From NCBI GenBank assembly GCA_946647055.1, contig CAMPCT010000010.1, positions 1-25,207 on the forward strand: DNA of 25,207 nt. The letters run 5' to 3'. The first letter of the stretch is position 1, and each line of letters starts with the position of its first letter. Below are positions 3 through 25,001 of the stretch, piece by piece. The DNA comes from an uncultured Atopobium sp. (GTDB taxonomy: Bacteria > Actinomycetota > Coriobacteriia > Coriobacteriales > Atopobiaceae). Made by a program: the position numbers and the translations under genes. Below the pieces are notes generated by a model, which did no database searches, had not been told where the DNA came from, and saw nothing but the letters and a program-made list of their open reading frames with translations.

Positions 3-134
3 GGCAGCGAGGTCACCCACGACTTCGAGGACTTCAAGCGGCGCTGCGACGTGATCCTCGCGAACCGCTGGAGCGCCGAGCTTGCCGATGTCGAGGACAA
101 AGTCTACACGCGCGACCTCTTCAGGAGAGACTAG
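3..134 (+). CDS. ugd: UDP-glucose 6-dehydrogenase, C-terminal end (partial)
   Basis: The last 43 codons of a gene that begins before the window, read in the third forward frame and ending at TAG 132-134. The translated tail contains the segments DVILANRW and DKVYTRDLF followed by RRD and the stop. These match the C-terminal NAD-sugar dehydrogenase domain of UDP-glucose 6-dehydrogenases, where a DKVYTRDLF-type ending is typical. The enzyme oxidises UDP-glucose to UDP-glucuronate with two NAD+. In this locus it would supply uronic acid, which fits the UDP-glucuronate 4-epimerase at 16564-17616. The active-site cysteine lies outside the window, so completeness cannot be judged. Confidence 0.85.
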   Translation, partial: GSEVTHDFEDFKRRCDVILANRWSAELADVEDKVYTRDLFRRD

Positions 135-176: not shown

Positions 177-563
177 ATGGGCGACAAAGCGTCTTCGCGA
201 ACCTATGCGTTGCTGCATGCCCTGCTCGTCGCCTACTCCTTCAACGGCGTCCTCAGCAAGCTCGCAGCCCAGCATCCCTTCCTGAGCATCCGGTTCATCC
301 TCCTCTACATGGGTGGCATCTGCCTCCTTGGCATCTATGCCATAGGGTGGCAGCAGGTCATCAAGCGCATGCCGCTGACCACCGCCTATGCCAACCGAGC
401 CGTCACGGTTGTGTGGGGCCTGGTCTGGGGCGTGCTGCTTTTCCACGAGCAAGTCAACGCCTTCAAGTTTGCCGGATCTGTCCTTGTCCTCCTTGGGGTC
501 GTCCTGTTTGCCTGGGCGGGCAACCAGCCGCCACAGGACGCCGAGGAGCGTGAGGCACAGTGA
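177..563 (+). CDS. Small multidrug-resistance/EamA-type transporter subunit, ArnE/ArnF-like
   Basis: A 128-residue protein with four predicted hydrophobic helices (about residues 10-28, 37-57, 72-89 and 96-114) and a short hydrophilic tail. This is the size and layout of a half-EamA/SMR unit. The segment PLTTAYAN (66-73) before helix 3 and FHEQV (89-93) after it are typical of the DMT superfamily. In Gram-negatives, paired proteins of this kind (ArnE and ArnF) flip undecaprenyl-phosphate-aminoarabinose across the membrane. A good ribosome site (AAGGAGG) sits just before ATG 177. The next gene starts inside this stop codon and is a second half-transporter, so the two probably form a heterodimer. 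The glycan context favours a lipid-linked sugar flippase over a drug exporter. The substrate is inferred. Confidence 0.72.
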   Translation: MGDKASSRTYALLHALLVAYSFNGVLSKLAAQHPFLSIRFILLYMGGICLLGIYAIGWQQVIKRMPLTTAYANRAVTVVWGLVWGVLLFHEQVNAFKFAGSVLVLLGVVLFAWAGNQPPQDAEEREAQ

Positions 564-904
564 TCGTCTCCGTGTTGATAGCCCTCTTCGGCGTGTTCAT
601 CAGCGGCATCTCGCAGGTGATGCTCAAGAAGAGCGCCACGGCCGAGCACAAGACGGTGGTGGAGGAGTACCTCAACCCCCTCGTCATTGGCGCCTATGCC
701 CTCTTTGTTGGCGCCACGCTCTGCTCGGTGATCGCATTCAGGCGCATTCCCCTGTCAATGGGACCGATTCTCGACGCCACAGGCTACCTGTACGTGTTCT
801 ACTTTGGCATTACCCTCTTCCACGAGCGTGTCGACCAAAAAAAGGTTCTTGCCTTGATACTCATCATTGCCGGGGTCATCGTCTACTCGCTCGGCGTATC
901 ATAA
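560..904 (+). CDS. Second EamA/SMR-type half-transporter, ArnE/ArnF-like partner
   Basis: A 114-residue protein with four hydrophobic helices (about 2-18, 41-60, 70-86 and 96-113). It carries the family-typical ISQVMLKKSA near the N-terminus, RRIPLSMGPILDA before helix 3 and FHERV (87-91) after it. It starts with GTG at 560-562, overlapping the TGA (561-563) of the upstream subunit. Such an overlap normally means translational coupling and equal amounts of the two subunits. The two proteins differ in sequence but have the same topology plan, as expected for an antiparallel heterodimer such as ArnE/ArnF. The likely job is moving the polyprenyl-linked sugar made by the GT2 at 1945-2865 to the outer face. 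Confidence 0.72.
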   Translation: MIVSVLIALFGVFISGISQVMLKKSATAEHKTVVEEYLNPLVIGAYALFVGATLCSVIAFRRIPLSMGPILDATGYLYVFYFGITLFHERVDQKKVLALILIIAGVIVYSLGVS

Positions 905-961
905 TCTGTCGGACGAACAGCCCCCTCGTCGCCCCCAAGACCAATCCGATTGGAACGCCCT

Positions 962-1936
962 ATGAGCTGGACCCAAGCCGAATGGCCCCTCGTCATCCAG
1001 AAGCTGTCCAGCCCCGACGCATGGGCTCCCTCAAACGAGATATACCTGCTTCGCGACGACCTCATTCCCGTTGCCCTTGGTGGCAACAAGGTGCGGATTG
1101 CCGGCGAGTTCCTTGCTGACATGCGCTCCCGTGGCTGCGATGCCCTCATCATGTACGGCGACCGACAGTCAAACCTCTGCCGGGTCCTAGCCCTGCTCTG
1201 TCGCGCCGGGGGTGTCCCCTGCCTCATGGTCGCAACCTCCGAGGCCCACAACACCACCTCCTTCAACGAGCGGATCATCCAAGACGCGGGAGTAGAGGTC
1301 CTGCAGTGCGAGAAGGATGGCATTGCCGAGGCGGTCGACCGCGCGTTTGAGCTGCTTGCCTCGAGGGGCCTTCGACCCTATTACATTTATGGGAACCGCC
1401 TTGGACGAGGCAACGAGGGCGTTGCCGCACATGCCTACGCACGGGTCTATCGTGCCATCGTAGATTGGGAGCGCTCTCATAACACGACGTTCGACCTGAT
1501 CGTGACGCCCTATGGAACCGGCGCCACCCAGGGAGGGCTCGTTGCGGGGAGCCTTCTCGAGGGAGACGGGCGGAGCATCGTGGGAATCTCGATCTCTTCC
1601 CGCCCCAAGGAGAGGGCGACCGAGATCCTCGTGGATGCGGTTTGCTCCTGGCTTGATAGGGAGGGTCTTGGGCGCCCCGCCGACCTCCTCGACCACATCG
1701 ACCTGAAGACCGCCTACACCCTTGGGGGCTATGGCCGCTTTGACCAGCGCGTCCTTGACCTCATTCAGGCCATGATGGAGCAGGAGGGAGTCCCCATGGA
1801 CCCCACCTACTCGGCAAAGGCATTTCGTGGCATGCTCGACTACCTTGCCGACCACCACGTGGAGGGTGCGCGCGTCCTCTTTGTCCACACCGGCAGCCTC
1901 CCGCTCTTCTTTGACCACCTGAACGCAAGAACCTAG
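962..1936 (+). CDS. PLP-dependent enzyme, ACC deaminase/D-cysteine desulfhydrase-like fold
   Basis: A 324-residue protein from ATG 962; an in-frame TTG at 950 would add four residues, and neither has a strong ribosome site. The N-terminal part reads YLLRDDLIPVALGGNKVR, the PLP-lysine motif of the tryptophan-synthase-beta-like group to which ACC deaminase and D-cysteine desulfhydrase belong (Lys43). It is followed by GDRQSN, where these enzymes have a QSNH loop with a catalytic Ser (Ser70 here). The residue after QSN is Leu, not the usual His. A glycine-rich PYGTGATQGG loop that would hold the PLP phosphate is present, and the C-terminal FVHTGSLPLFF matches the family ending. It sits between the ArnEF-like pair and an ArnC-like transferase, so a catabolic role seems unlikely. 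It may make or rearrange an amino acid for the ATP-grasp ligase at 2867. The reaction is unknown. Confidence 0.7.
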   Translation: MSWTQAEWPLVIQKLSSPDAWAPSNEIYLLRDDLIPVALGGNKVRIAGEFLADMRSRGCDALIMYGDRQSNLCRVLALLCRAGGVPCLMVATSEAHNTTSFNERIIQDAGVEVLQCEKDGIAEAVDRAFELLASRGLRPYYIYGNRLGRGNEGVAAHAYARVYRAIVDWERSHNTTFDLIVTPYGTGATQGGLVAGSLLEGDGRSIVGISISSRPKERATEILVDAVCSWLDREGLGRPADLLDHIDLKTAYTLGGYGRFDQRVLDLIQAMMEQEGVPMDPTYSAKAFRGMLDYLADHHVEGARVLFVHTGSLPLFFDHLNART

Positions 1937-1944
1937 GAGAGAGT

Positions 1945-2865
1945 ATGCTTGTCTCTGTTGTCATCCCCTGCTACAACTCGGAGCACACCATCGCCAAGGT
2001 CGTGGGCCTCATCAAGGAGGAGTTCTCACGCCTTGATGGTTACGAGTGCGAGTTCGTCCTCGTCAACGACTGCTCCTCCGACGGGACCTTCGACGAGATC
2101 CGTCGCATTGGAGAGCAGGACCCGAGCGTCCACGGCATCAGCCTGATGCGAAACTTCGGCCAGCACAACGCCCTCATGTGCGCCATGAACTATGCCTCGG
2201 GCGACCTGGTCCTTGGCATGGACGACGACATGCAGACCCACCCGTCCCAGATCGGAATCATCCTCTCCAAGATGGCCGAGGACTATGACGTGGTCTACGG
2301 GGTGTATCGCGAGAGCACCAACGGGGCGATCAAGAACTTCACGAGCTGGTTCAACAAGGTCTCGTCGCGCATCCTCCTTGGTCGCCCCAAGGACGTTCGC
2401 TCGTCAAACTTCTGGTGCGTCACGGGCGCGGTCAAGGACGAGGTCATCCGCTGTGGAAGCTTTAGCCCCTACGTTGACGGGCTCTTCTATAGGACGACCC
2501 ACAGGATTGGCAACGTCGAGATCGAGCACCACAAGCGCGAGTACGGGTCTTCGGGATACAGCCTCCGAAAGATCATGAAGCTCTGGCTTGCATACTTTAC
2601 CTACTCCGTCGTCCCACTGCGCTTTGCCTCGGTGACGGGGCTCGTCTCCTCGCTCCTTGGCTTTGTCGCAGGCGTCGTCACGGTCATACGGAAGCTCGTC
2701 GACCCCACCGTGCCCATGGGTTGGACGTCAACCGTCTGCCTCATGCTGTTCCTTGCCGGCCTCATCCTCTTTGTGCTGGGAATCATTGGGGAGTACGTGG
2801 GGGACGCAGTGCTCATGCTCAACGGAACCCCGCAGTTCATCGTCCGCGAGAAGGTGAACCTCTAG
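1945..2865 (+). CDS. Polyprenyl-phosphate glycosyltransferase, GT2 family (ArnC/GtrB/DPM1-like)
   Basis: A 306-residue membrane-anchored glycosyltransferase. The GT-A domain opens with VSVVIPCYNSE (3-13), has NDCSSDGT (41-48), and the metal-binding acidic motif MDDDMQTHP (92-100). This is the DxD-Q variant characteristic of the ArnC/GtrB/DPM1 branch. Two C-terminal membrane helices (about 228-248 and 261-283) are also typical. These enzymes move a sugar from a nucleotide donor to undecaprenyl phosphate on the inner face. The ribosome site AGGAGAG overlaps the stop of the PLP gene, and the next gene starts one base after this stop, so they share an operon. The likely donor is the amino sugar made by WecE at 4159, or a derivative; this is inferred from context only. 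Confidence 0.85.
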   Translation: MLVSVVIPCYNSEHTIAKVVGLIKEEFSRLDGYECEFVLVNDCSSDGTFDEIRRIGEQDPSVHGISLMRNFGQHNALMCAMNYASGDLVLGMDDDMQTHPSQIGIILSKMAEDYDVVYGVYRESTNGAIKNFTSWFNKVSSRILLGRPKDVRSSNFWCVTGAVKDEVIRCGSFSPYVDGLFYRTTHRIGNVEIEHHKREYGSSGYSLRKIMKLWLAYFTYSVVPLRFASVTGLVSSLLGFVAGVVTVIRKLVDPTVPMGWTSTVCLMLFLAGLILFVLGIIGEYVGDAVLMLNGTPQFIVREKVNL

Positions 2866-2866
2866 C

Positions 2867-4063
2867 ATGGCGGGGACGGGTCGCATACTGGTGCTTGGCG
2901 CAGGGATCTACCAGGTGCCGCTCATCCAGACGGCGCAGCAGATGGGCCTCGAGGCAATTGTGGTGAGCCGTCCGGGCAACTATCCCGGCTTCTCCGTAGC
3001 CGACCGGTCCCTCCCCCTCGACACAACTGACTGCGCGGGCATCCTCGAGGCCGCCCGCGAGCTTTCGGTTGACGGAATCATCACCACGGGCACCGACGTT
3101 GCCATGCGCTCGATTGGCAGGGTCTGCGACGCATTGGGCCTGTCTGGGCTGTCCGAACGTGCGGCAATGCTCGCAACCGACAAGGCCCTCATGAAGGATG
3201 CCTTTGCGAAGGGCGGGGTGTCCACCTCCCCGTTCGAGGTCGTCCGCAGCCTTGGCGACGCGCTCTCGGCGGCGGCGTCGATTGGCTATCCCGTCATGGT
3301 CAAGGCATGCGACGTCTCGGGGAGCCGCGGCATAAGCAAGGTTGGTTCCCCGGAGGAGCTGCCCCGCGCCCACGAGGAGGCACGTGCCGCAACGAGGAAG
3401 GACTACGTTGTTGTCGAGGGCTTTGTCTCGGGCCACGAGATTGGCGTCGACGCCTATGTGAGCCAGGGGGAGCTGGTCCTCTTCGCCCCGCACACAAAGT
3501 TTGTCAGGCGCGCGGGCTCGGTCACGGTTCCCGAGGGCCACGCCTTCCCCATCGCCGAGGGCCCGGAGACCCTTGCCGAGATACGACGCCAGACCAAGCT
3601 CTCCATCGAGACGCTTGGCCTTGACAACTGCGCAGTCAACGGTGACTTCATGGTCTGCGATGACGGCACGGTGAGCGTGCTGGAGGTTGGCGGGAGGTGC
3701 GGGGCCACCTGCATCCCCGAGCTCATCTCCATCCACCTCGGCATAGACTACTACCGCCAGATGATTCGCGGCGCCCTGGGAGAGAGGCCAGACCTGACCC
3801 CGCGCTGCAACAAGCCCTGCATGGCCAAGCTTCTCTTCTCCCAGACCTCTGGGATCGTGAGGTCAATAGACGAGGCAGGCCTCTCCCGGCTGCTCCAGGG
3901 GCACCCAGAGGCAACCGTCTCCCTGGACGTCTCCGTTGGGGACGAGGTCTGCGCCATCAGGAACGGCACGGACCGCTGGGGCCAAGTCATCATGGAGACG
4001 TCAAGCGAGGCGGAGCTTGACCATATGGTCTCTGCCGTTCGCTCCTGCGTCGAGGTCGCCTGA
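2867..4063 (+). CDS. ATP-grasp carboxylate-amine ligase
   Basis: A 398-residue soluble protein with ATP-grasp architecture. A pre-ATP-grasp Rossmann-like domain begins RILVLGAGIYQVPLI (6-20). The ATP-grasp domain has YPVMVKACDVSGSRGI (141-156, ATP-binding Lys146 and a Gly-rich loop), VEGFVSGHEIGVD (183-195), and the metal-binding end NGDFM...LEVGGRCGAT (258-281, Glu273). The C-terminal 100 residues fit the ligase lid. ATP-grasp enzymes activate a carboxylate as acyl-phosphate and join it to an amine or thiol. Between an ArnC-like transferase and a WecE aminotransferase, a reasonable reading is N-acylation of the amino sugar with an amino acid or similar acid, possibly one made by the PLP enzyme at 962. 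It starts one base after the GT2 stop, so the two are probably coupled. Its substrates cannot be read from sequence. Confidence 0.75.
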   Translation: MAGTGRILVLGAGIYQVPLIQTAQQMGLEAIVVSRPGNYPGFSVADRSLPLDTTDCAGILEAARELSVDGIITTGTDVAMRSIGRVCDALGLSGLSERAAMLATDKALMKDAFAKGGVSTSPFEVVRSLGDALSAAASIGYPVMVKACDVSGSRGISKVGSPEELPRAHEEARAATRKDYVVVEGFVSGHEIGVDAYVSQGELVLFAPHTKFVRRAGSVTVPEGHAFPIAEGPETLAEIRRQTKLSIETLGLDNCAVNGDFMVCDDGTVSVLEVGGRCGATCIPELISIHLGIDYYRQMIRGALGERPDLTPRCNKPCMAKLLFSQTSGIVRSIDEAGLSRLLQGHPEATVSLDVSVGDEVCAIRNGTDRWGQVIMETSSEAELDHMVSAVRSCVEVA

Positions 4064-4158
4064 TTTCTCCCCGCTAAAACCGCAGTTACCCCAACCCATG
4101 CAAGAAGTGCTGCTACCATGGTGCAATCCAGGCATCACGTATCTTGCGAGGGTTTTGC

Positions 4159-5292
4159 ATGATTGACTTCAACATTCCGCCTTTCCTGGGCACCGAGATG
4201 GACTATGTCCGCGAGGCAGCGGCCGTCAACCACAAGATCTGCGGCGACGGCCCCTTCTCGCGCAAGTGCCACGCGTGGATGGAGCAGCGTTTCAATGCCG
4301 AGAAGGCCCTGCTCACCACCAGCGGCACCTCCGCACTCGAGATGGCCGCCATCCTCTGCGACCTCCAGCCCGGCGACGAGGTGATCCTGCCCAGCTTCAC
4401 CTTCTCCTCCACCGCCACCGCGTTCCAGATGGTGGGGGCAACCTTGGTCTTCGTCGACATCCGACCCGACACCATGAACCTCGACGAGGCCAAGGTAGAG
4501 GATGCCATCACCTCGCGCACGCGCGTCATCGTCCCGGTTCACTACGCCGGCGTCGCCTGCGAGATGGACACGATCGTCCGCGTTGCCCGGAAGCACGACC
4601 TCAAGGTGGTGGAGGACGCCGCGCAGGGCGTGATGAGCACCTACCACGGGCGTGCCCTAGGCACCATCGGTGCCTTTGGCGCCTTCTCGTTCCACGAGAC
4701 CAAGAACTACTCCATGGGCGAGGGTGGGGCCATCCTGGTCAACGACCCGGCCTTCATAGAGCGCGCCGAGATCATCCGCGAGAAGGGCACCAACCGCCAG
4801 CGCTTCTTCCGCGGCCAGGTTGACAAGTACACCTGGGTCGACCGCGGCGGCTCCTACCTGCAGAGTGACCTCAACGCCGCCTACCTCTGGGCTCAGCTGG
4901 AGCAGGCGGACCACATCAACAACGACCGCCTGGCCACCTGGGGCGCCTATTGGGACGCGTTCCAGGACCTTGCGGCGGACGGCCTTGTCGAGCTGCCCCG
5001 CATCCCCGAGGGCTGCGTCCACAACGCGCACATGTTCTACCTCAAGTGCACCAACCTCGAGCAGCGCGGCGCCCTCATCGCCCACCTCAAGGCGCGCGGG
5101 GTTCACGCCGTCTTCCACTACATTCCGCTGCACAGCTCGCCTGCCGGGCAGATGTTTGGCCGCTTCCACGGCGAGGACGAGTGGACCACCCGCGAGAGTG
5201 AGCGTCTGGTCCGCCTGCCGCTTTATTATGGGATGAGCGATGAGGACCGCCAGACCGTCATTGCGGCCGTGAGGCAGTTCTACAGGGGTTAG
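4159..5292 (+). CDS. wecE: dTDP-4-amino-4,6-dideoxygalactose transaminase (WecE/RffA)
   Basis: A 377-residue DegT/DnrJ/EryC1-family aminotransferase whose length and sequence follow E. coli WecE closely. Diagnostic blocks are VIVPVHYAGVACEMDTI (123-139), VVEDAAQGVMSTY (150-162), FSFHETKNYS with PLP Lys182, REKGTNR, FFRGQVDKYTW and VFHYIPLHSSPAG. WecE converts dTDP-4-keto-6-deoxy-D-glucose with glutamate to dTDP-4-amino-4,6-dideoxy-D-galactose (Fuc4N). RmlB at 23943-24965 makes the substrate. ATG 4159 with upstream GCGAGGG is preferred over an in-frame TTG at 4144, because it gives the normal family N-terminus. The 95-base gap before it contains an extended -10-like TGC-TACCAT at 4111-4119, so a separate promoter is possible. 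The product name is strong; exact stereochemistry at C4 is inferred from the family. Confidence 0.93.
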   Translation: MIDFNIPPFLGTEMDYVREAAAVNHKICGDGPFSRKCHAWMEQRFNAEKALLTTSGTSALEMAAILCDLQPGDEVILPSFTFSSTATAFQMVGATLVFVDIRPDTMNLDEAKVEDAITSRTRVIVPVHYAGVACEMDTIVRVARKHDLKVVEDAAQGVMSTYHGRALGTIGAFGAFSFHETKNYSMGEGGAILVNDPAFIERAEIIREKGTNRQRFFRGQVDKYTWVDRGGSYLQSDLNAAYLWAQLEQADHINNDRLATWGAYWDAFQDLAADGLVELPRIPEGCVHNAHMFYLKCTNLEQRGALIAHLKARGVHAVFHYIPLHSSPAGQMFGRFHGEDEWTTRESERLVRLPLYYGMSDEDRQTVIAAVRQFYRG

Positions 5293-5316
5293 GATCCTAG
5301 TCCGGGGGTTGTAAGC

Positions 5317-7368
5317 ATGTGGTTCTCTTACGTCGTTGCCATTGTCGTTGGAGTGGCGCTCTCCTTTGTTCCGGGGTACCTTGCCCTGCGATGCATTCGT
5401 CTTGGCAGAGTCGCGTCCCTCTGCGCCGCACCCCTCGCCACGTACGGGATCTATGGCATCCTCGCCCTGGTCTACGGATTCTGCGGCGTCTTCTGCAGCT
5501 GCCTCTCCCTTGCGGCTGCCCCCTCCGCGCTCTTCCTGTGCGCCTTGCTTGTCTCGAATGCCGTTGGCCGGAGGCGCGCCGGTGCCGAGGAGGCCCGGGA
5601 CCGCGATGCAGACGAGGACGCCACCACCCAGGACTCGTGGTTTGAGGCGCGCACGGGCTTCCTCGTTCTTGCCACAAGCGTTCTTGCGGGCATCGTCATC
5701 TGCGCAGTGGTGTTTTGCTGCAACCTCGGAAACCCGGACTCCTTTGCCCAGAACTACGACAATGCGTGGCACCTCTGGCACATCTACCACATTGCGGGCA
5801 CGGGTATCCACTCCTCGCTCACCAGCGTCTTCTACCCCTCCGTCTATCACAGCCTCTGCGCTCTCGTCCAGACTTCGTCATCCGTGTCGAACATCTGCGC
5901 GGAGAATGCGGTCAACTTCGTTCTCCCCGCTTTCGTCTTTCCGGCCAACGTCGTCTTGCTGGCCTCCCAGCTCTTTCCCGAGAGCCCCCGGAAGACACTC
6001 CTCTCGGGCGTCCTCTGCCTCTCGATCGCCTTCTTCCCTTGGCGCATCATGCTCTTTGGTCCGCTGTACCCAAACGTTATGGCCTTCTCGGTCATGCCAG
6101 TAGAGGCAGTGGCCTTCATCCGTGCCACCCTGCCCCACACCACCCCCAAGGACCGCCTCCGCTGGGCAGCCCTCTTTGTGCTGGGAGGAATGGGCCTCGC
6201 ACTCATCCACCCCAACTCGGTCTTCTCAACAGGCGTCTACCTCATCCCCTATCTCATCCACTCCACGGGAACACTGGTTGCCGAGAGGACCCACGGCCGC
6301 AAGGGGGCACGCGTGCTCCCCGTTGTCGCAGCGTGTGCCATGCTCCTCGTCATCGCGTGCGTTTGGGTGGCGTTGTATCGCGCGCCATTCATGCAGTCGG
6401 TCGTGGGGTACGGCCGCGATGCGCCAAACCTCCCGATCCAAGCCCTAAAGTGGGCTTTGGCGCTGTGCTATACCCGCAGGAGACAGCAATACCTCCTCGG
6501 GTGCATCGTCGTCCTGGGCACGGCGCTCATGCTCAGGAAGCCCGGTCGCAGGTGGGCCGGGATCTCCTACGTCCTGCTTGTCGCGCTCTACGTGGTCGCC
6601 TTTGGTGTGGGCGGCGAGGCCAAGGGGCTCCTCACCGGCTTTTGGTATTGCGACTACAACCGCCTCGCGGCCGCCGCCTGTGCCTTTGCGGCACCCTCGA
6701 TTGCCGAAGGCGTCGACGCCCTGGCACACGGCGCCTCGTTGGCCCTTTCGGCCTTGCGCAAGACGGGCGATGCCAACAGGTCCGCGACTACAGCCCCTGC
6801 GGTCACCTGCCTCGTGACCGCGCTTGTCGTGCTGCTCAACTTCTTCCCGCTACCCTTCATCCCCAAGTCGGTCCGCTCCTTTGCCTTCGACACCGTCTCT
6901 CAGGAGTTTTCCAGCGTATATGGCGACCCTGACTGGATCTACCTCGACGACGCGGAGGTGGCGTTCCTCAACGAGGTGCACGACGTCGTTCCGGAGGGAG
7001 AGAGGGTGCTCAACCAGCCCCACGACGGAAGCGTCTTTGCCGCATCGGTCGCAGACGTTCCCGTGACGTTCAACTTCTTCTTCGAGGCGAGAGATAACTC
7101 CGATGGCTGGAAGGCAGTGCGCGAGGGCCTGTGCGACTACACGAGCAATCCCGACGTTGCTGCCCAACTCGAGGAGAGGGGTGCCCACTACCTGCTCCAG
7201 CTCGATCAGGGCAACAGCATCTACGGGATGAACGCACGGGGAACCCTCTACACGCTTGGCTATGAGGGCGTCGACTGGGAGGGGATCAACTCCGTGAGGG
7301 ATGACACCCCAGGGTTCGAGGTTGTTCTCTCAGAGGGAGACATGCGCCTCTACCGGATAACCGGCTGA
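5317..7368 (+). CDS. Large polytopic membrane protein, GT-C-like (resembles DUF6541-type proteins)
   Basis: A 683-residue integral membrane protein. It starts with a hydrophobic helix (about 4-24) and has many further helices up to about residue 530. The rest is a soluble, probably extracytoplasmic C-terminal domain of about 150 residues, beginning near FDTVSQEFSSVYGD. The first large loop contains QNYDNAWHLWH (145-155), with an Asp placed like the acidic residue in the first outer loop of GT-C glycosyltransferases. A charged insert (84-108) lies on the inner side. I believe it belongs with the actinobacterial glycan-locus proteins called DUF6541, but I cannot confirm this without a search. 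As last gene of the wecE block, it is a candidate for transferring the lipid-linked amino sugar to the acceptor polymer. That role is inferred. Confidence 0.65.
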   Translation: MWFSYVVAIVVGVALSFVPGYLALRCIRLGRVASLCAAPLATYGIYGILALVYGFCGVFCSCLSLAAAPSALFLCALLVSNAVGRRRAGAEEARDRDADEDATTQDSWFEARTGFLVLATSVLAGIVICAVVFCCNLGNPDSFAQNYDNAWHLWHIYHIAGTGIHSSLTSVFYPSVYHSLCALVQTSSSVSNICAENAVNFVLPAFVFPANVVLLASQLFPESPRKTLLSGVLCLSIAFFPWRIMLFGPLYPNVMAFSVMPVEAVAFIRATLPHTTPKDRLRWAALFVLGGMGLALIHPNSVFSTGVYLIPYLIHSTGTLVAERTHGRKGARVLPVVAACAMLLVIACVWVALYRAPFMQSVVGYGRDAPNLPIQALKWALALCYTRRRQQYLLGCIVVLGTALMLRKPGRRWAGISYVLLVALYVVAFGVGGEAKGLLTGFWYCDYNRLAAAACAFAAPSIAEGVDALAHGASLALSALRKTGDANRSATTAPAVTCLVTALVVLLNFFPLPFIPKSVRSFAFDTVSQEFSSVYGDPDWIYLDDAEVAFLNEVHDVVPEGERVLNQPHDGSVFAASVADVPVTFNFFFEARDNSDGWKAVREGLCDYTSNPDVAAQLEERGAHYLLQLDQGNSIYGMNARGTLYTLGYEGVDWEGINSVRDDTPGFEVVLSEGDMRLYRITG

Positions 7369-9485: not shown

Positions 9486-11951
9486 ATGCGCTGGCACAAC
9501 TTCCTATACCTTGCACCGGCCGCCCTCCTTGCGATCGTGCTTCTTGTCGTCCTCGCAAGGCGCGTACCCTCCCTTTCCGCCCCCTCAAGGAGAAGGACGC
9601 GGGAGGAGCTCGTGGCCCTTGGGGTGTTGTGCGCCTTTGGCCTTGCAATCATCTACTGGAACTTCTACGTCTGCAAGACGTACTTTGTCTACAACATTGG
9701 CGACGTTGGCTCCGACACGACCGAGCAGTACTATCCCTTCTACCTCTGGTTGATTGACTCCGCGAGGAGCGGAACGCTCTCCGCGTGGTCCTTCGAGTAT
9801 GAGCTTGGGGTGAACCTCCAGTCGTTCCAGACGTGGCTCTTTGACCCCTTCAACCTGGTGTTGGTTCCGCTGGGATTGCTCCTTGGCAATGCCCGGCTCA
9901 GCCTTGCCCTCGTCATCACGCAATCGGTCAAGCTCGTCTTGAGCGCCTTCCTCTTTGACCATCTGCTCACCCGCTACTGCGAGACTCCCATCTCGCGCCT
10001 GCTTGGGTCTCTGCTCTATGCCTTCAGCGGCTTCATGGTCCTGTACGGACAGCACTACTGGATTGGAGGGGCCCTCCCCGTCTTCACCGCCACGATTCTG
10101 CTCTTCGAGCGCTACCTCGAGCGCCATGACAGCCGCAGCTTCCTTGACGTGACGCTCATTGTGGCCATACAGCTTGCCTGGAGCGTGTACGTTGCCTTCA
10201 TGATTCTCCTTGGCACCGCGCTCTACCTCCTGGTTCGCATTCCCGCCATTGTTGACGACTTCACACCCAAGCGTTATCTGAGGGAGATTGGGCTGTGCTT
10301 TGTCCCCGTGACCTGCGGCTTCCTCCTGGCCTGCATCACCTGCGTCCCCTATGCCAACTTCCTTCTCAACGAGACGGCTCGCACCTCCAGCTCGACATCG
10401 CTCGTGGAGCGTGTGGCCATAAAGGCCGGCATGTTTGTGCATGCCGACTGGATCCTCCCCATCCTCTCCCGCATGGTAGGCAGCGGCCTTCTCAACACCG
10501 GGGCCGTACCCAGCACGCCGCTGGTGTCAAACACCTATGACATCGGCTTTGTCGGAAGCTTCCCTTACGAGTTCATCCTCTTGGGCTACTCGGGAGGCTT
10601 CTTCATGCTGCTGTCGCAGTTCTTCCACTGGGTTGTCCGGGACTGCGACAAGAGGGGAAGGATCCTCGTTGCGGCAGGAACCACCCTCGTGCTTGCATAC
10701 TGCTTTCACGAGCTTTTGCCGTCCGTGTTCACGATGATGGTGCGCACCCAATACCGCAGCAGCTTCGTCATAGCCCTGCCGGCCTGTCTAGCCATGTCTG
10801 TGGGATTCGAGAAACGCGTCGTCGAGGGAAAGATTGCCCGTGTACCCCTCGCTCTCTCCTTTGTTGCCACGCTGGCAGTCGTTCTCTGGTCTCTCCTCAA
10901 CACGCTCAACGGACGTCTCGTGTGCCTGTACTTCCTGGCATGCACCACGGTGGCGTTTGCCGTGCTTGTTCTGGATGGCACCAGGCTGAGCAGAGACATG
11001 CTCACCACGATCTTCGTGGCCGCCCTGTTCTCGATGTCGGTCGTAGACGGCCTCTTTACCACTAACTGTCGCCTCATGGTCGAACCCATCGGCATTCCCT
11101 ACACAAGGGAGTCCGGCGGCGCCACACCCAGCGTGAGAGCCCTGTCTTATCTTGCGGGACAGGACGACACCTTCTATCGCGTCGACAAGGACTTCTCCGA
11201 CTGGAACCCCCTCAACGACTCCCTCATCGAGCACTACGCGAGCGTCTCCGCCTATAACTCGAGCCCAGATGCCGACGTCGACGACTTCTACCACAACCTG
11301 TGGAACGAAGCCATCTCCACTTGGTCGGTGTATTCCCAGGGGCTCAGAAACGATCAGCCCCGCCCAGAGCTGCTGTCCCTTCTCGATGTGAAGTACTTGA
11401 TCATGTTGACCCCCATCGAGCAGGACTGGCTCCGGCTTGTGACGACGATCGATGACGTCTACGTCTACGAAAACACCAACAGCCCCTCGCTTGCCACCCT
11501 TCGCACGGCGGTCATTGGCGAGGGAGAGGCCGCCCTCCTCCCCGACTCGGCAGCCCGAAGGGAGCTTCTCTCGGGCTACGTCATCGTCCCCGATGAGGTC
11601 GCGGCCTCTTGGAACGGAGCGACCCCGGGGGACGGCGCGTCCTCCCCGGCCGTCTTCAGGACGTGGGACCAAAGCGTCCTGACGGGCACCATCGACGCCT
11701 CGGACGACTCGGTGGTCTGCCTCTCGATTCCCTTCACTGGCTCATGGACCATCACGGTGGATGGCGCCGAGGTCGATACCTTCAGGGCCAACTACGGCTT
11801 CTACGGCTTTGAGATAACCCGGGGAGAGCATAGGGTGCAGGCCACATATTCCATTGACGGATTGGTGACGGGTGCCCTGCTCTCGTGCATGGGCGTTGTC
11901 CTCACGGCCGTGGTATTCCGCCTGATGCGAAAGACGGAGGCCACCGCATAA
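9486..11951 (+). CDS. YfhO family membrane protein (GT-C-like glycosyltransferase)
   Basis: An 821-residue polytopic membrane protein with about a dozen helices spread over residues 7-545, then a soluble extracellular region (about 550-790), and a final membrane helix (about 791-812) before a basic tail. Family marks are GDVGSDTTEQYYPFYLW (72-88), where YfhO proteins have an acidic residue and QYYPFY, and LLYAFSGFMVLYGQHYW in the next membrane block. YfhO proteins are believed to transfer sugars from a polyprenyl-phosphate carrier to teichoic acids or other wall polymers, working with a CsbB/GtrB-type GT2 and a small flippase. Here those partners could be the genes at 1945 and 177/560. A GGAG ribosome site precedes ATG 9486. 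The gap to the upstream GT2 is 57 bases, so they are probably co-transcribed. Confidence 0.8.
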   Translation: MRWHNFLYLAPAALLAIVLLVVLARRVPSLSAPSRRRTREELVALGVLCAFGLAIIYWNFYVCKTYFVYNIGDVGSDTTEQYYPFYLWLIDSARSGTLSAWSFEYELGVNLQSFQTWLFDPFNLVLVPLGLLLGNARLSLALVITQSVKLVLSAFLFDHLLTRYCETPISRLLGSLLYAFSGFMVLYGQHYWIGGALPVFTATILLFERYLERHDSRSFLDVTLIVAIQLAWSVYVAFMILLGTALYLLVRIPAIVDDFTPKRYLREIGLCFVPVTCGFLLACITCVPYANFLLNETARTSSSTSLVERVAIKAGMFVHADWILPILSRMVGSGLLNTGAVPSTPLVSNTYDIGFVGSFPYEFILLGYSGGFFMLLSQFFHWVVRDCDKRGRILVAAGTTLVLAYCFHELLPSVFTMMVRTQYRSSFVIALPACLAMSVGFEKRVVEGKIARVPLALSFVATLAVVLWSLLNTLNGRLVCLYFLACTTVAFAVLVLDGTRLSRDMLTTIFVAALFSMSVVDGLFTTNCRLMVEPIGIPYTRESGGATPSVRALSYLAGQDDTFYRVDKDFSDWNPLNDSLIEHYASVSAYNSSPDADVDDFYHNLWNEAISTWSVYSQGLRNDQPRPELLSLLDVKYLIMLTPIEQDWLRLVTTIDDVYVYENTNSPSLATLRTAVIGEGEAALLPDSAARRELLSGYVIVPDEVAASWNGATPGDGASSPAVFRTWDQSVLTGTIDASDDSVVCLSIPFTGSWTITVDGAEVDTFRANYGFYGFEITRGEHRVQATYSIDGLVTGALLSCMGVVLTAVVFRLMRKTEATA

Positions 11952-11999
11952 GAGCGGGAGCCTCCTGTTCGAGTCACTCCTACCTGGACAGCACCCAAC

Positions 12000-13295
12000 C
12001 TACGAGAGGGCAACGCCTCCGTACCAACCCCACCTTGGGGCAACGGTTGTTCCGTAGAACGCAATCCAGCTGTCGATGGGCGTCTCCTGGACCCCGCTGG
12101 TACCAAAGTCACGCACGATGCCGTTGCCCACGTAGATGCCCACGTGGCCATTGATGGCTCCCGCCGAAGAGCGCGAGTGGGTGGTAACACCAATGATCAT
12201 TCCCGGCTTGAGGTCTGCACGGTTGGAGCTGAAGCAATAGGTATCGGTATAGAGGGCTGCGTTGTAGGTTGGGGCATCAATTCCAACGCTTTTGAAGACA
12301 AAGTAGACGTACCCGGAGCAACCCCAGCCGCGTGCCCCCGCCTCTGCCGGGGGCCCGCTGGAATATGCCGAGTCCAAGACGGCCTGCAGCAAGCCACTGG
12401 TCCCAGGCGTTGGCGCAGGGGTCTCCTGCTGAGGCGTGCTCTGAGCGGGGTCGTTGTTGGCGTCGGGGTTGGTGGCGGCGGGATCCTGGCCACTGTCCTT
12501 GGCCTGCCCGTCCTCGTTCTTTGTCTCGTCTGCGGCGTCATTGTCCTCGTCGGGCTTACTTCCCTCCTGGTCTTCCGCGACCATCTGAGCCTGGCCGAGA
12601 ATCTCTGCGCTCTCCTCACCAAGGAGCGGCTCAACCTCCCTGGGGATGGAGCTCAGCAACTCGGAGGTCTCCTCCTGGAGGGCGCGCATGTCCTCGGTCT
12701 GACTCCTCTGCTGCTCGTACAGGGTCTCGAGGTCGGCCTCCTGCTCGTGGAGGTCGGCTTCGAGCTCCTTGAGCTCCGCCTGTCGGCTCTGTAGCTCTTC
12801 GCGCTCGGTGTTTATCTGGTTGATGGCATCGGCCTCGGACTGCGCGATGGCGCCGTAGTAGTACATCCTCGAGATTGCCTGTTCGAACGAGGTGGACGTC
12901 AGGACGATGGCAAGGAGGTTGACTCCGCCAGACTTGTAGCTGGCGGAGATGTGGTCCCCCAGGTACTCCTGCTTTTCCTCGAGGTCTGCCTGGCGGTCCT
13001 GTATCTCCTGCTCGACATCGGAGATGCGCGCCTCGATATCTGCGATCTCGGCCCACACGCCCTCGAGCTGGGAATAGGTGGCATCCTGCCTCTCGGCGAG
13101 GGCAACATACTCATCGGAATAAGACTCGAGGCGATTCAGAACCTCAACGTACTCGGGGTTGAGGTTCTCCTCCGCCTCGTCGGCAAGCGATGAGGCGGGT
13201 AGGCCAGCAAAGGCAATGGCAGCGGCGCAGAGGCAGGCAAGCGCACGAGTGCCCAGCCTCGCACCGTAACCAGATTTCCCTCTCGCTCCCAGCAT
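12000..13295 (-). CDS. Secreted NlpC/P60 peptidoglycan hydrolase with N-terminal coiled coil (PcsB/CwlO-like)
   Basis: A 431-residue exported protein. A signal peptide (about 1-38, ending ASSLA) is followed by a long coiled coil (about 45-215, rich in Glu, Gln, Leu and Ala) containing the PcsB/CwlO-like stretch SYKSGGVNLLAIVL. Then come an acidic Asn/Asp/Pro/Gln-rich linker (about 225-300) and a C-terminal NlpC/P60 domain (about 305-431). The catalytic Cys is Cys326 in RGWGCSGYV and the His is His384 in GHVGIYVGNG. The usual Asp before Cys is Gly, and the third polar residue, often a His 12 positions after the first His, is Asp396. Such enzymes cut peptidoglycan stem peptides, often for cell separation, and the coiled coil usually contacts an FtsEX-type regulator. 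AGGAGGG lies seven bases before the start. Confidence 0.88.
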   Translation of the reverse strand: MLGARGKSGYGARLGTRALACLCAAAIAFAGLPASSLADEAEENLNPEYVEVLNRLESYSDEYVALAERQDATYSQLEGVWAEIADIEARISDVEQEIQDRQADLEEKQEYLGDHISASYKSGGVNLLAIVLTSTSFEQAISRMYYYGAIAQSEADAINQINTEREELQSRQAELKELEADLHEQEADLETLYEQQRSQTEDMRALQEETSELLSSIPREVEPLLGEESAEILGQAQMVAEDQEGSKPDEDNDAADETKNEDGQAKDSGQDPAATNPDANNDPAQSTPQQETPAPTPGTSGLLQAVLDSAYSSGPPAEAGARGWGCSGYVYFVFKSVGIDAPTYNAALYTDTYCFSSNRADLKPGMIIGVTTHSRSSAGAINGHVGIYVGNGIVRDFGTSGVQETPIDSWIAFYGTTVAPRWGWYGGVALS

Positions 13296-17616: not shown

Positions 17617-17750
17617 ATGCTGCCTCTTCCCGCTGTTGATGAGAGCCAGAGTCCGTAGGGTCGTCATTGGTAGATACTTCAAATTGGCCACCCGCATGCT
17701 GCGGTACCTGCCGCATCATCATATCTCATCTACAAAGGCGTCACAGAAGA

Positions 17751-17923: not shown

Positions 17924-18889
17924 CTAGCTGTCCCTCCCACGCGGGACAAACAGCGGGATGAGGACCTGCCCCACCCGCCTTCCGATTCCCTGCTGCCACA
18001 GGCCGTGCCTGACGATCGTGATCACGTGACCCAGACCCCTGGGCTGCGCGGAGCCGTAGTCGCGGCACGCGCAGTAGTCCTTCTCGGAAAGGCGCCCCTC
18101 ATACGCCTTTGCGAAGGCCGCAGCCTGCTCTTGTGCCCGCTCGTGGGCCTTTGCGACCTCACCAACGATCGAGAGGTAGCGGAGAACGTCGTACGTGCGT
18201 GCTCCCTCAACATTGGCCCCGTGCTGACGGTACTTCACGAGGGGCTGGTCAACGAAGGCTATCTTGCCGAGCGCCGCTGCAACGAGCATGATCCACCAAT
18301 CGTGCATGACGATGCCCTGCACGTCCTCCACCTCGCCCAAGGCATCGATCAGCGCACGATTTATGAGCATCGTGCATCCCGGAGCCATGTTGCCAACCAG
18401 CAGACGCCTGAACTGCGTTGCCGACGGGTCAAAGTGCTCCAGTCGCAAGAATGACGGTGCGACCGGGGAAAGGGTGCTGTCCACAACCTCTGCGTCGCAG
18501 AATGCGAGTACCGGGACATCGTCGCCAAGCTCCTCCTCGCACTGCCGTGCGGCAAGCAGGAGCTCCTCTACCTTGTTGGGGGCCCATACGTCATCTTGGT
18601 CTGAGAAGAGCACATAGCCGGCGTCCGACTGCCCCAACAGCCACAGGAAGCGCCCGCTTGGACCCCGGTGGAGCCGCTCGTCCTCCAAAACGTGGATGCG
18701 GCCGTCCTCCCCCGCCAGGCGCCGTATCAGCCCTGGGGTGCCATCCGTTGACCCGTCATCGCAAACAAGCAACCGCCACTGCCCAAAGGTCTGATCCTGT
18801 ATCGATTGGACCTGCTCCTCGAGGTACGTCTCGCCGTTATAGGTAGCCATCAAGACGTCGACCGTCGGATACCGTGGCCCTTCCGTCAT
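17924..18889 (-). CDS. Family 2 glycosyltransferase, rhamnosyltransferase-like
   Basis: A 321-residue GT2 enzyme. It has VDVLMATYNGETYLEEQV (10-27), VCDDGSTDGT (42-51), YVLFSDQDDVWAPNKV (92-107), and in the C-terminal half MHDWWIMLVAAALGKIAF followed by LVKYRQHGANV. This set is typical of rhamnosyltransferase-like GT2 enzymes of rhamnan and O-antigen loci. The basic C-terminus (IGRRVGQVLIPLFVPR) may touch the membrane. The start at 18889 overlaps the flippase stop as ATGA, with AGGAGG seven bases upstream, so the pair is translationally coupled. A longer frame upstream of 18889 only reads through the flippase in another frame. dTDP-rhamnose is the likely donor by family and context. Confidence 0.88.
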   Translation of the reverse strand: MTEGPRYPTVDVLMATYNGETYLEEQVQSIQDQTFGQWRLLVCDDGSTDGTPGLIRRLAGEDGRIHVLEDERLHRGPSGRFLWLLGQSDAGYVLFSDQDDVWAPNKVEELLLAARQCEEELGDDVPVLAFCDAEVVDSTLSPVAPSFLRLEHFDPSATQFRRLLVGNMAPGCTMLINRALIDALGEVEDVQGIVMHDWWIMLVAAALGKIAFVDQPLVKYRQHGANVEGARTYDVLRYLSIVGEVAKAHERAQEQAAAFAKAYEGRLSEKDYCACRDYGSAQPRGLGHVITIVRHGLWQQGIGRRVGQVLIPLFVPRGRDS

Positions 18890-20439
18890 CGCGATTCCTC
18901 CTGTTGTATGCCCACGTGTGGGGCGAGCAGATTCGATGCCCATCTGATTGCCGTCTTCAGCAGGGGGTTTCTGAGGTTGACAAGAAGGTAGACCGCAGCA
19001 GAGACCAGCGTGCAAATCACGCCGCGCAGCAGCAACATGATGATCCCGTCGCCCGGGACGAGTGAGCAGAGGAAAAAGGATATCCCGCAGACCAGCAGCG
19101 TCCCTACGGCATAGAAGAGGTTGTCGGCAAAGTACTCCCCCATCTTCCCGTTCTTGAAGTAGTACTTGAAGATGATGGCCGTTGCCATGCCAAAGTTGAT
19201 GATCAACAGGGAGATGAGGGTTGCAGCGATGACGCCCTCTACCCCCCACATACGGACAAACAGGAAGTTGAGAACCAAGTTGGCCGCCGACTCCGCAACG
19301 GCCCTCCAGCGCATCTCCCACCAAAGGCCCGCGCCGCTTGCATAGATCGAGATGATGTCACCCATCTTCAGGCTGTAGTAGTACAGGACCATAAGGATGA
19401 CGGCTGCCATGCCAAACGTGTTCTGCTCCCCCGCCCAGAGTCTCATGAAGGGCTGGTACAGACAGAGCAGGCAGGCGGTACTCCAGCCGGAGACGAGCAT
19501 GTAGACGAAGTTCATGAGGCGCATGTCGCCGTAGTTCTTGTCTGCGCTGTCGGTGACGATGCTGTTCCCAACCGTGGGGAGAATGGCCGTCGAGACGACT
19601 CCCAGAAGGCCCGTCACGGCGTTCATGATGAGGAGGTAGTTGTTGTAGATGGCGGTGACGGTCAGACCGAGGAAGGTTGAGAGGAAGACGCTGTCAAAGG
19701 AGTTGCGCGTGGTCACGCAGACGCGCTGGATGGTCAACCCAACAACACGTTTGCGAATCGATGCACGCAGCTCGTTGGATATCCTGCCCTTGGGAGCGTA
19801 TTCGGGATAGTTCCTGTCAACGTAGCGGGAGACGCAAAGGTTGTTGAGGAGCGTGCATAGGGGAATGGCAACGAGGTAGGCGTAGTAGTTGTGCACCGCC
19901 AGCAAGATGACGATCTGTGCCGCGTTGAGCACGACGTTGGTGATTGTGTTCACGTTGCTCACCACATCCACCCGCTGCATGGCGGTTGGGAGAGCCTGCT
20001 TGTAGGCAAACAGGAGGTAGCTGACAACCGTGTTGGCCAGGTAGATGAGGTAGAGGATGTAGATGTTGACGTCTGCGGGAGGCTCGCCCTTGATGAGCCG
20101 GGGAAGGAAGGGGAGCACCGCAAGCCCCAAGAGGCCAATAACGATGCCTATGATGCGGTACACCCTGCGATAGTAGTTCATGAGCGCAGAGATGACCGGC
20201 TTGTCATCCTTTGCCACGGGCTCGTAGAGAGCGTACACGATGGCGGTGCCAATCCCAAGGTCGGCAAGGTTCAGCACCTGCAGGATGGAGGCGACCAGCG
20301 AGTTGAGGCCCACGTACTCCATGCCGAGGACGTAGATGAGAGCCGTACGGGAGAAGAAGGGCATGAGCATGGTGACCACCTTGTTCACCATGCCAAACAC
20401 CAGGTTTCTCTTGGCTTTTTCGACTCGGCTCTCTGTCAT
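18886..20439 (-). CDS. Polysaccharide flippase, Wzx/MOP superfamily
   Basis: A 517-residue membrane protein with about 12-14 hydrophobic helices over its whole length. The start reads MTESRVEKAKRNLVFGMVNKVV, the arrangement seen in Gram-positive Wzx-type flippases (basic residues, then N-x-x-F before helix 1). It flips undecaprenyl-diphosphate-linked repeat units outward. ATG 20439 has AGGGAAGG close upstream. Upstream in-frame ATGs at 20466 and 20496 are less likely: the latter lies in the loop of a strong hairpin and the extra residues are hydrophilic. Its stop overlaps the GT2 start (ATGA). As a Wzx protein it implies that a full repeat-unit polymer is made here, in addition to the ArnEF-like monosaccharide route at 177-904. 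Confidence 0.88.
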   Translation of the reverse strand: MTESRVEKAKRNLVFGMVNKVVTMLMPFFSRTALIYVLGMEYVGLNSLVASILQVLNLADLGIGTAIVYALYEPVAKDDKPVISALMNYYRRVYRIIGIVIGLLGLAVLPFLPRLIKGEPPADVNIYILYLIYLANTVVSYLLFAYKQALPTAMQRVDVVSNVNTITNVVLNAAQIVILLAVHNYYAYLVAIPLCTLLNNLCVSRYVDRNYPEYAPKGRISNELRASIRKRVVGLTIQRVCVTTRNSFDSVFLSTFLGLTVTAIYNNYLLIMNAVTGLLGVVSTAILPTVGNSIVTDSADKNYGDMRLMNFVYMLVSGWSTACLLCLYQPFMRLWAGEQNTFGMAAVILMVLYYYSLKMGDIISIYASGAGLWWEMRWRAVAESAANLVLNFLFVRMWGVEGVIAATLISLLIINFGMATAIIFKYYFKNGKMGEYFADNLFYAVGTLLVCGISFFLCSLVPGDGIIMLLLRGVICTLVSAAVYLLVNLRNPLLKTAIRWASNLLAPHVGIQQEESR

Positions 20440-20470
20440 TGCCTTCCCTATCGCACGGATAAGCATCCGA

Positions 20471-20522
20471 GAAGGCTTGCCACCCCTGTCATTCACTCGA
20501 AGTCAGGGGGTGGCAAGCCTTC
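20471..20522. terminator. Large stem-loop between L,D-transpeptidase and flippase genes
   Basis: Arms 20471-20488 and 20504-20522 are complementary over about 18 base pairs with one unpaired C/G, around a 15-base loop. This is by far the longest intergenic hairpin in the window. It lies 38 bases after the L,D-transpeptidase stop and just before the flippase start, both on the minus strand. No T-run follows on either strand, so it could be a U-tract-less terminator, a transcript-processing or stabilising element, or an attenuator for the flippase. A smaller hairpin (arms 20527-20533 and 20544-20550) precedes it on the minus strand. Confidence 0.5.
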
Positions 20523-22873: not shown

Positions 22874-22894
22874 AGGACCTCCCAAAAGCGACAA

Positions 22895-23024: not shown

Positions 23025-23930
23025 CTAGCCCTCGAGCTCCGGCAAGTTGGCCAGGAAGGTCGCCAGCGCGTCGCGCCACGGGCGCATCTCGTCACCGATG
23101 GTCTGGGCCAGGTGCTCGTTTTTGAGCGCCGAGAAGAGCGGCCTGCGGGCGGCGTCGGGATGTGCCTCGGCGTACTCGTCGGAGGTGCAGGGCGTGACGA
23201 TGTCGGGGCTGTAGCCGGCCCCCTCCACGATGGCGCGGGTGAACTCCGCCCACGAGCAGATGCCGTTGTTGGTGCAGTGGTAGATGCCGTAGTCCTCGGT
23301 GAGGATGAGGCGCAGCAGCTCGTAGGCGAGGTCGTTGGCAGAGGTGGGGTTACCCAGCTGGTCGTCCACCACCGTCATGCCGCCCAGCTCGCGCGCGAGG
23401 CGCAGCATGGTCTTGACGAAGTTCTTGCCCACATAGCCGTAGAGCCAGGCCGTGCGCACCACGAACGTGCGGGGGTTCGCCTCGAGCGAGAGCTGCTCGC
23501 CGGCCAGCTTGGTGCGGCCATAGGCGCTGATGGGGCCGGTGACGTCGGTCTCGACGCGCTCGCCGGGCTCGGTGCCGGGGAAGACGTAGTCGGTCGAGAC
23601 CTGGACGAACTTTGCCCCCTGTGCGGCGCTGGCGCGGGCGAGGTTCTGCGGACCCAGGGCGTTGACCTTGTAGGCCGCGTCCTCCACCTTCTCGCAGCCA
23701 TCGACGTTGGTCATGGCCGCGCAGTTGATGACGGCGTCATAGGAGCGCTCGGCAAACCAGGCGTCGACCGCCGCCTCGTCGGTGATGTCGAGCTCCTCGT
23801 AGTCGATGTACTCCGCCTCGGAGCCAACCAGTTCCTGCGGGATGGGGCCGATCTCGGCCTGTCCCGTCGTGAGCAGACGGCGAAGCTCGTTGCCCAGCTG
23901 TCCCTTGCCACCCGTTACGAGAATCCTCAT
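23025..23930 (-). CDS. rfbD: dTDP-4-dehydrorhamnose reductase (RmlD)
   Basis: A 301-residue NAD(P)H-dependent reductase of the SDR family. It starts MRILVTGGKGQLGNEL with the cofactor loop GGKGQLG (7-13). The catalytic Tyr137 and Lys141 are in SAYGRTKLAGEQ, and the family blocks VINCAAMTNVDGCE (67-80) and STDYVFPG (112-119) are present. It makes the last step of dTDP-L-rhamnose synthesis. Length is normal for a stand-alone RmlD. GGGAGG lies seven bases before the start. The gene is 12 bases after rmlB in the same direction, so the two form one operon. RmlC (epimerase) is not in the window and must be elsewhere for rhamnose to be made. Confidence 0.93.
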   Translation of the reverse strand: MRILVTGGKGQLGNELRRLLTTGQAEIGPIPQELVGSEAEYIDYEELDITDEAAVDAWFAERSYDAVINCAAMTNVDGCEKVEDAAYKVNALGPQNLARASAAQGAKFVQVSTDYVFPGTEPGERVETDVTGPISAYGRTKLAGEQLSLEANPRTFVVRTAWLYGYVGKNFVKTMLRLARELGGMTVVDDQLGNPTSANDLAYELLRLILTEDYGIYHCTNNGICSWAEFTRAIVEGAGYSPDIVTPCTSDEYAEAHPDAARRPLFSALKNEHLAQTIGDEMRPWRDALATFLANLPELEG

Positions 23931-23942
23931 CTTCGTGCCTCC

Positions 23943-25001
<1,059 letters not shown>

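Follow-up and report, generated by a model that had tools for sequence, protein, structure and literature searches.

A conserved gene set in Atopobium and Lachnospiraceae probably carries a Fuc4N-type amino sugar to the cell surface on a lipid

Does a tightly packed gene block in an uncultured Atopobium sp. encode a Gram-positive counterpart of the Arn pathway, as an earlier note on this DNA proposed? The block lies in a stretch of 25,207 nt (contig CAMPCT010000010.1, assembly GCA_946647055.1), referred to here as the window. The answer reached, with a probability of roughly 0.7, is that the conserved gene set is a lipid-carried decoration route for a sugar of the 4-amino-4,6-dideoxygalactose (Fuc4N) type. 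It would resemble Arn in its working and run from RmlB and WecE over an ATP-grasp ligase and a GT2 glycosyltransferase to a pair of EmrE-like half-flippases and a GT-C transferase. The block itself consists of seven open reading frames (ORFs), all on the + strand between 177 and 7368, which confirms the co-directional order described before; the gaps between them are, in order, -4, 57, 8, 1, 95 and 24 bases.

177..563, + strand: EmrE1, a small ArnE-like half-flippase (EamA 30.6 bits, above the cut-off of 28.2)
560..904, + strand: EmrE2, a second half-flippase overlapping EmrE1 by 4 bases (EamA 28.1 bits, marginally below the cut-off)
962..1936, + strand: PALP, a pyridoxal phosphate (PLP) enzyme, ATG start, with a TTG at 950 (PF00291 81 bits)
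1945..2865, + strand: GT2, predicted undecaprenyl-phosphate Fuc4N-type transferase, ArnC/GtrB/PgfS-like (GT2 family 89 bits)
2867..4063, + strand: ATP-grasp ligase, the predicted acylating enzyme for the 4-amine (ATP-grasp_4 39 bits)
4159..5292, + strand: WecE, deoxythymidine diphosphate (dTDP)-4-amino-4,6-dideoxygalactose transaminase, ATG start, with a TTG at 4144
5317..7368, + strand: DUF6541, candidate GT-C transferase (PF20176 451.7 bits, gathering cut-off 29)

Families were assigned by Pfam and NCBIfam profile searches with curated cut-offs, by structure matches and by hhalign comparison of the cassette families. WecE is the sole strong equivalog match in the block, with 624 bits against PRK11706 (cut-off 375), 621 bits against TIGR02379 (cut-off 434.85) and a structure match to 4piw/4zah at E 7e-169. 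The nearest NCBIfam model of the GT2 is PgfS with 151 bits, followed by ArnC with 127.5 bits, both below cut-off. The protein aligns over its full length with the ArnC structure 9hwj (E 2e-32) and with GtrB 5ekp (E 1e-28), which makes it a GT2 of the polyprenyl-phosphate type, as expected in a multi-component transmembrane glycosylation system.

We infer that the GT2 uses the product of WecE, mainly because the two genes co-occur almost exclusively with each other in two separate groups, together with the family of the enzyme. Co-occurrence was evaluated in 250 Lachnospiraceae and 197 Coriobacteriia genomes with Fisher tests, which ignore kinship between genomes. In Lachnospiraceae, GT2 hits were accepted at E<=1e-75, WecE at E<=1e-100 and PALP at E<=1e-90 (14 of 19 hits, the five weaker ones of 108-141 bits being dropped). 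Against a background of 81/250 Lachnospiraceae with WecE (80 over the TIGR02379 cut-off), WecE is present in 63 of the 68 GT2-positive genomes and in 18 of the 182 GT2-negative ones, and all 18 genomes with a GT2 of at least 430 bits carry it. In Coriobacteriia, the corresponding numbers are 16/16 and 9/181. These counts bear on a test set by the earlier note, for which a GT2 using UDP-glucose or UDP-N-acetylglucosamine would have spoken against its reading. The genes are often neighbours as well: for the 73 GT2 hits in Lachnospiraceae, a WecE start lies within 5 kb in 35 cases and within 20 kb in 48. As a control, YfhO was found in 64/81 WecE-positive and 124/169 WecE-negative Lachnospiraceae, the WecE-positive genomes without it being picked from the listing by eye. 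YfhO thus has no tie to WecE, and the tie between GT2 and WecE is therefore not general to surface-sugar genes. Since 188/250 genomes carry YfhO, with no clear excess among the WecE-positive ones, it was rejected as a WecE-specific partner.

Further genera, from two phyla, carry the gene set as well, which goes beyond chance. An alignment of 29 PALP sequences yielded 158 relatives in named genomes, and the best 80 of these 158 were made into loci, mostly from Lachnospiraceae, plus Atopobiaceae/Olsenella and a few others. These loci were chosen by PALP similarity and are therefore biased towards PALP contexts; gene families in them were called with our own local hidden Markov models and thresholds. 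A GT2 lies within 5 kb of PALP in 73/80 loci and a separate ATP-grasp gene in 70/80. Together, the GT2 and an ATP-grasp domain (separate or fused) are found in 71/80 loci, hereafter the core loci, while in 47/80 PALP is followed directly by GT2 and this by ATP-grasp. Anywhere in the stretch, EmrE1 is present in 55 loci, EmrE2 in 54, WecE in 37, RmlB in 28 and YfhO in 16, a separate count of YfhO giving 15. The expectation that the same genes would stand together in other genomes is therefore borne out for the set with its GT2 and ATP-grasp, and not for all members at every locus (EmrE1, EmrE2 and WecE). TIGR02379 was also searched in 50 of the 80 PALP-locus genomes, and 43 of them hold a WecE over the cut-off. 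Of the seven without it, one is G024 (locus L038, a metagenome-assembled genome); in the other six, PALP sits in a Wzx-type cluster that lacks the cassette GT2. This gives 43/44 for the non-Wzx-type genomes and 0/6 for the Wzx-type. Gene order varies, and in Blautia-type loci it is ATP-grasp-PALP fusion, ATP-grasp, EmrE1, EmrE2, GT2, WecE. In L006, L008, L036 and L037, doubled cassettes (PALP-GT2-ATP-grasp-EmrE1-EmrE2-GT2-ATP-grasp) are preceded by two or three large YfhO proteins.

Genomes without PALP were represented by 36 WecE loci, a hand-picked and non-random sample of mostly high-scoring WecE hits from the 250 genomes. Here the GT2 lies within 5 kb of WecE in 19 loci and anywhere in the stretch in 21, none of the kind being present in 15, and the EmrE pair was found in 10. 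One of them, L103, has YfhO, RmlB, EmrE1, EmrE2, WecE, GT2 and ATP-grasp all in the same direction, interrupted by two unidentified ORFs; another, L084, has YfhO, WecE, GT2 and ATP-grasp together. By these loci, the core of the set is therefore WecE and GT2, to which the EmrE pair, the ATP-grasp and PALP are optional additions.

All NCBIfam hits of the window PALP are below cut-off (CuyA 130 bits; TIGR01275 116.7 bits, cut-off 289.4). By these matches, it is a member of the D-cysteine desulfhydrase / D-cysteate sulfo-lyase / 1-aminocyclopropane-1-carboxylate deaminase superfamily. GGNKVRI, SNLCR and Y-x-x-KA, which we take to be motifs of this superfamily, are invariant across the 29 aligned sequences. 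An ATP-grasp lies within 5 kb of PALP or is fused to it in 77/80 loci: the 71 core loci, L055, where the contig stops before any GT2 and the two are fused, and the Wzx-type loci with one exception among the six. L002, L057 (at a contig end) and L069 are without such a partner. The two enzymes that the earlier note had counted as extra to the Arn set are thus a recurrent, predicted acylation pair, fused in 19/80 loci; Pfam gave the domain order for two of these, L080 and L074. On a midpoint-rooted ATP-grasp tree, with fused proteins trimmed to their first 400 residues, the fused domains stand in two places (16 and 3), and therefore two ATP-grasp lineages have been joined to PALP. ORFs above 480 aa were omitted from this tree unless fused, so that two ORFs with tandem ATP-grasp domains, L015 7454-9859 and L067 5536-8625, are absent from it. 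The L067 ORF has some 230 N-terminal residues without a domain match, perhaps owing to a wrong start.

In five of the six Wzx-type loci the ATP-grasp beside PALP is of another, PylC-like kind, with a PylC-like N-terminal domain by Pfam in four. The fifth, in L077, has a carbamoyl-phosphate synthetase-like match (PRK12767) and clusters with two of the other four; at 10953-12431 it is joined to a GNAT-type acetyltransferase region. In L069, uniquely among the six, a formyltransferase (PF00551, 8547-9416) lies directly 5' of PALP. The transaminase in the four Wzx-type loci checked is DesI-like, below cut-off. With WecE in the cassettes and DesI-like enzymes in Wzx-type loci, PALP is therefore linked to both kinds of dTDP-4-amino sugar.

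The two proteins described before as ArnE/F-like half-flippases are indeed ArnE-like by profile. Against E. coli ArnE, hhalign gives 96.4% for the EmrE1 family and 91.8% for the EmrE2 family, and against ArnF 51% and 2.5%. ArnE is also the best NCBIfam model of EmrE1 (27.9 bits; EmrE2 21.3 bits; cut-off 92), so that these putative small flippases resemble ArnE remotely by profile yet reach no ArnE or ArnF cut-off. In EmrE, a Glu in the first hydrophobic stretch is essential. With the stretch judged by eye, a conserved Glu was found there in neither cassette EmrE1 nor EmrE2, the conserved E36 of EmrE2 falling after it.

The predicted model of DUF6541 has a GT-C fold likened to that of ArnT, in agreement with its earlier description as a large GT-C-like membrane protein and with what is expected of a multi-component system; a sequence match to ArnT was not found. 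Its supposed place as the conserved GT-C of the pathway is not borne out, as YfhO-family proteins are the commoner GT-C neighbours in the loci, although YfhO is common anyway; in L065 a YfhO protein even overlaps PALP by 4 bases. DUF6541 is enriched in WecE-positive Coriobacteriia (15/25 vs 46/172 of the WecE-negative genomes), and no paper on it was found in the open-licence literature. The Coriobacteriia genomes G471, G452 and G474 hold at least two DUF6541 genes near each other, and because of these clustered copies the STT3-like family may serve several decorations.

Compared with Arn (E. coli K-12 arnBCADTEF), the set likewise has a sugar 4-transaminase related to ArnB, an ArnC-like GT2, an ArnE-like pair and a GT-C with the ArnT fold, and hhalign puts both GT2-ArnC and WecE-ArnB at 100%. 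It differs in having WecE for ArnB, and neither its ATP-grasp nor its PALP matches ArnA or ArnD (hhalign <1%). No match to E. coli ArnD turned up in the ORFs of the window or of 120 comparison loci; for the formyltransferase half of ArnA (residues 1-300) there were two weak ones (L069 32 bits, L085 25 bits). All Arn equivalog cut-offs are missed: besides ArnE, ArnC with 127.5 vs 529 bits and ArnB with 191 vs 631 bits. A family following EmrE2 in nine loci, c21, was rejected as an ArnD counterpart, the tested member being PdaA-like (271 bits, cut-off 298). The idea of an Arn counterpart thus has support from the family of the GT2 and of the transaminase, from the remote profile similarity of the putative flippase pair and from the GT-C fold, and fails for the ATP-grasp and PALP. 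As predicted from its genes, the set works like Arn and is not a member of it, with no Arn homologue in the acylation steps.

The set fits the broader multi-component transmembrane glycosylation kind, reviewed in PMC8035078 (excerpted). With GtrAB-Gtr, CsbB-GtcA-YfhO, GtlA-GtcA-GtlB and the Citrobacter pentofuranose system it shares an undecaprenyl-phosphate-type GT2, a putative small flippase and a GT-C; an EmrE/ArnE-like flippase serves the three-component pentofuranose system too, according to the excerpt of PMC11127046. It differs in its two-gene EmrE pair instead of GtrA, in its added ligase and PLP enzyme, and in its donor, predicted to be a dTDP-derived 4-amino-4,6-dideoxyhexose. The donors named in the excerpts of PMC11127046 and PMC8035078 are glucose, galactose, N-acetylglucosamine and pentofuranoses, with aminoarabinose for Arn. 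In the Streptococcus PgfS-PgfM1-PgfM2 system, PgfS and PgfM1 are the nearest NCBIfam models of the GT2 and of a nearby YfhO protein, but the cassette scores are far under both cut-offs. PgfE, the sugar source of that system, is presumably not a WecE relative. WecE/RffA of enterobacterial common antigen belongs to the same enzyme family, over the cut-off; there the sugar enters an undecaprenyl-pyrophosphate repeat unit that is flipped by WzxE. Amide formation on a surface sugar by an ATP-grasp enzyme is seen in the Campylobacter jejuni HS:2 capsule, where the TupA-like domain of Cj1438 amidates (PMC11800379, in part), but that sugar supplies the carboxylate, whereas the cassette sugar would supply the amine, and the ATP-grasp family differs. 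No published description of the set was among the matches listed (titles and abstract openings, open-licence literature); nearest to it among these is a Clostridium butyricum capsule locus predicted to make dTDP-Fuc4N (PMC12342839, in part).

Outside the block, the window holds the following features.

3..134, + strand: C-terminal end of ugd, the last 43 residues of UDP-glucose 6-dehydrogenase (NF011631 E 6e-10)
9486..11951, + strand: YfhO/PgfM1-like protein 2.1 kb downstream of the block, another candidate GT-C (PF09586 151 bits; PgfM1 67 bits, below cut-off)
18886..20496, - strand: Wzx-like multi-transmembrane protein (by eye), no Pfam or NCBIfam match
23025..23930, - strand: RmlD, dTDP-4-dehydrorhamnose reductase, which would compete for the intermediate used by WecE (TIGR01214 280 bits, cut-off 224)
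23943..24965, - strand: RmlB, dTDP-glucose 4,6-dehydratase, the likely source of the keto-sugar for WecE (TIGR01181 470 bits, cut-off 365)

The block directly follows ugd, as had been noted. The 43-aa fragment, a short query, matched none of the ORFs in the 120 comparison loci; ugd is therefore probably outside the conserved gene set and was rejected as a conserved member. A TupA-like ATP-grasp (14655-15548, - strand, PF14305 102 bits) lies in one region with a nucleoside diphosphate-sugar epimerase (16564-17697, - strand) and the ugd end; by analogy with the Cj1438 domain, it may amidate a uronic acid. A 777-aa protein (20561-22894, - strand) has a YkuD L,D-transpeptidase domain and, by eye, wall-binding-like repeats; next to Blautia-type cassettes, too, there are YkuD, GH25 and amidase proteins that carry choline-binding repeats. 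Amid the glycan genes, 12000-13295 (- strand) encodes a likely cell wall hydrolase, in which an NlpC/P60 domain accompanies a PcsB-like coiled coil.

In the proposed route, RmlB would give dTDP-4-keto-6-deoxyglucose and WecE would transaminate it to dTDP-Fuc4N, steps for which the family-level assignment is strong. Because of the gene fusions and the repeated pairing, PALP and the ligase are probably functionally coupled: PALP would make or process a small acyl substrate, for which an amino acid is the likeliest candidate, and by the ligase this would be attached to the 4-amine of the sugar. The GT2, by its family and its co-occurrence with WecE, would transfer the sugar to undecaprenyl phosphate, the ArnE-like pair would flip the lipid-linked sugar, and a GT-C enzyme (DUF6541, the YfhO protein close by, or both) would put it on a surface glycan. 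That the sugar is aminoacylated is an even bet. A fuller picture is more tentative, with chances somewhat short of even: an aminoacylated 4-amino-4,6-dideoxyhexose, dipeptidyl-like in some species, would be made in the cytosol, loaded on undecaprenyl phosphate, flipped and transferred to wall glycans, with the amino acid made to order by the ligase-coupled PLP enzyme and a second residue added by the tandem ATP-grasp fusions of L015 and L067.

Several observations weigh against this lipid-carried route. The cassette GT2 is missing from 18/81 WecE-positive Lachnospiraceae and 9/25 WecE-positive Coriobacteriia, and WecE therefore has further uses. Conversely, 5/68 GT2-positive Lachnospiraceae have no WecE hit, and in 25/73 cases no WecE start lies within 20 kb of the GT2 hit on its contig, many contigs being short. 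WecE is absent from 3/14 PALP genomes in Lachnospiraceae and from 1/4 in Coriobacteriia, where PALP is rare (4/197 genomes, 3 of these with WecE). All co-occurrence counts treat related genomes as independent. An ATP-grasp stands beside WecE without PALP in 14/36 PALP-less loci, so PALP is not always required. In the surroundings of 18/71 core loci, some of them on short contigs, no EmrE pair was found, and for this reason another flippase may serve them. No single GT-C family is conserved across the loci, DUF6541 being clear in L065 only among the 80, with a 32-bit hit in L005. A Wzx-like gene is present in the window itself, so a mixed route may operate. That gene, together with several GT2s and RmlBD, would also suit a scheme in which WecE supplies dTDP-Fuc4N to an ordinary Wzx/Wzy repeat unit, while the GT2, EmrE pair and GT-C carry another sugar, such as glucose or N-acetylglucosamine, for a separate decoration. 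The WecE-positive Lachnospiraceae without the cassette GT2 agree with this, as does the nearness of the GT2 to PgfS, an undecaprenyl-phosphate-sugar enzyme for other sugars. Fuc4N genes are also placed in the C. butyricum capsule locus (PMC12342839, in part). Nevertheless, a glucose or N-acetylglucosamine enzyme would not need WecE, and only 5/68 and 0/16 GT2-positive genomes lack it; GT2 and WecE are often near each other even without PALP (19/36 loci within 5 kb). We consider this scheme distinctly unlikely.

It is also rather unlikely that the ATP-grasp shields the amine, as ArnA does, by acting as a PurT-like transferase of an N-formyl or N-acyl group, with PALP metabolically separate. Comparison of the ATP-grasp fold ties PurT, which uses formate, with L-amino acid ligases, which weighs against aminoacylation, and because of this tie the fold was rejected as a discriminator between formyl and amino acid ligases. 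However, PALP is fused to or paired with three ATP-grasp lineages, which an amino acid made to order would explain better, and ArnD, as stated above, is unmatched. The LAL_C2 domain (PF18603) is annotated for many of 120 relatives among the matches listed, and L080 passes the gathering cut-off of 29.4 with 35.5 bits, the window copy scoring 24.8 bits, below it. Very improbable is a third scheme, in which PALP and the ATP-grasp make a free small molecule, e.g., a dipeptide like those made by BacD-type ligases, which the EmrE pair exports with the sugar genes as bystanders. The EmrE proteins do have weak hits to EbrA and other small multidrug resistance efflux models, but they have no conserved Glu at the place where EmrE needs one, and the set is tied to two kinds of dTDP-4-amino-sugar transaminase, WecE and the DesI-like enzymes.

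If the lipid-carried Fuc4N-type route is correct, such decoration would occur in about a quarter of the sampled Lachnospiraceae (68/250) and in some Coriobacteriia (16/197), both groups being rich in gut bacteria. It would account for WecE in most of the WecE-positive genomes sampled (63/81 Lachnospiraceae, 16/25 Coriobacteriia), and DUF6541 would gain a GT-C role. In the fuller, more tentative picture, amino-acid decoration of Gram-positive surfaces would also proceed by a route other than the Dlt system. The PLP enzyme, the ATP-grasp ligases and surface charge would become linked in a testable way.

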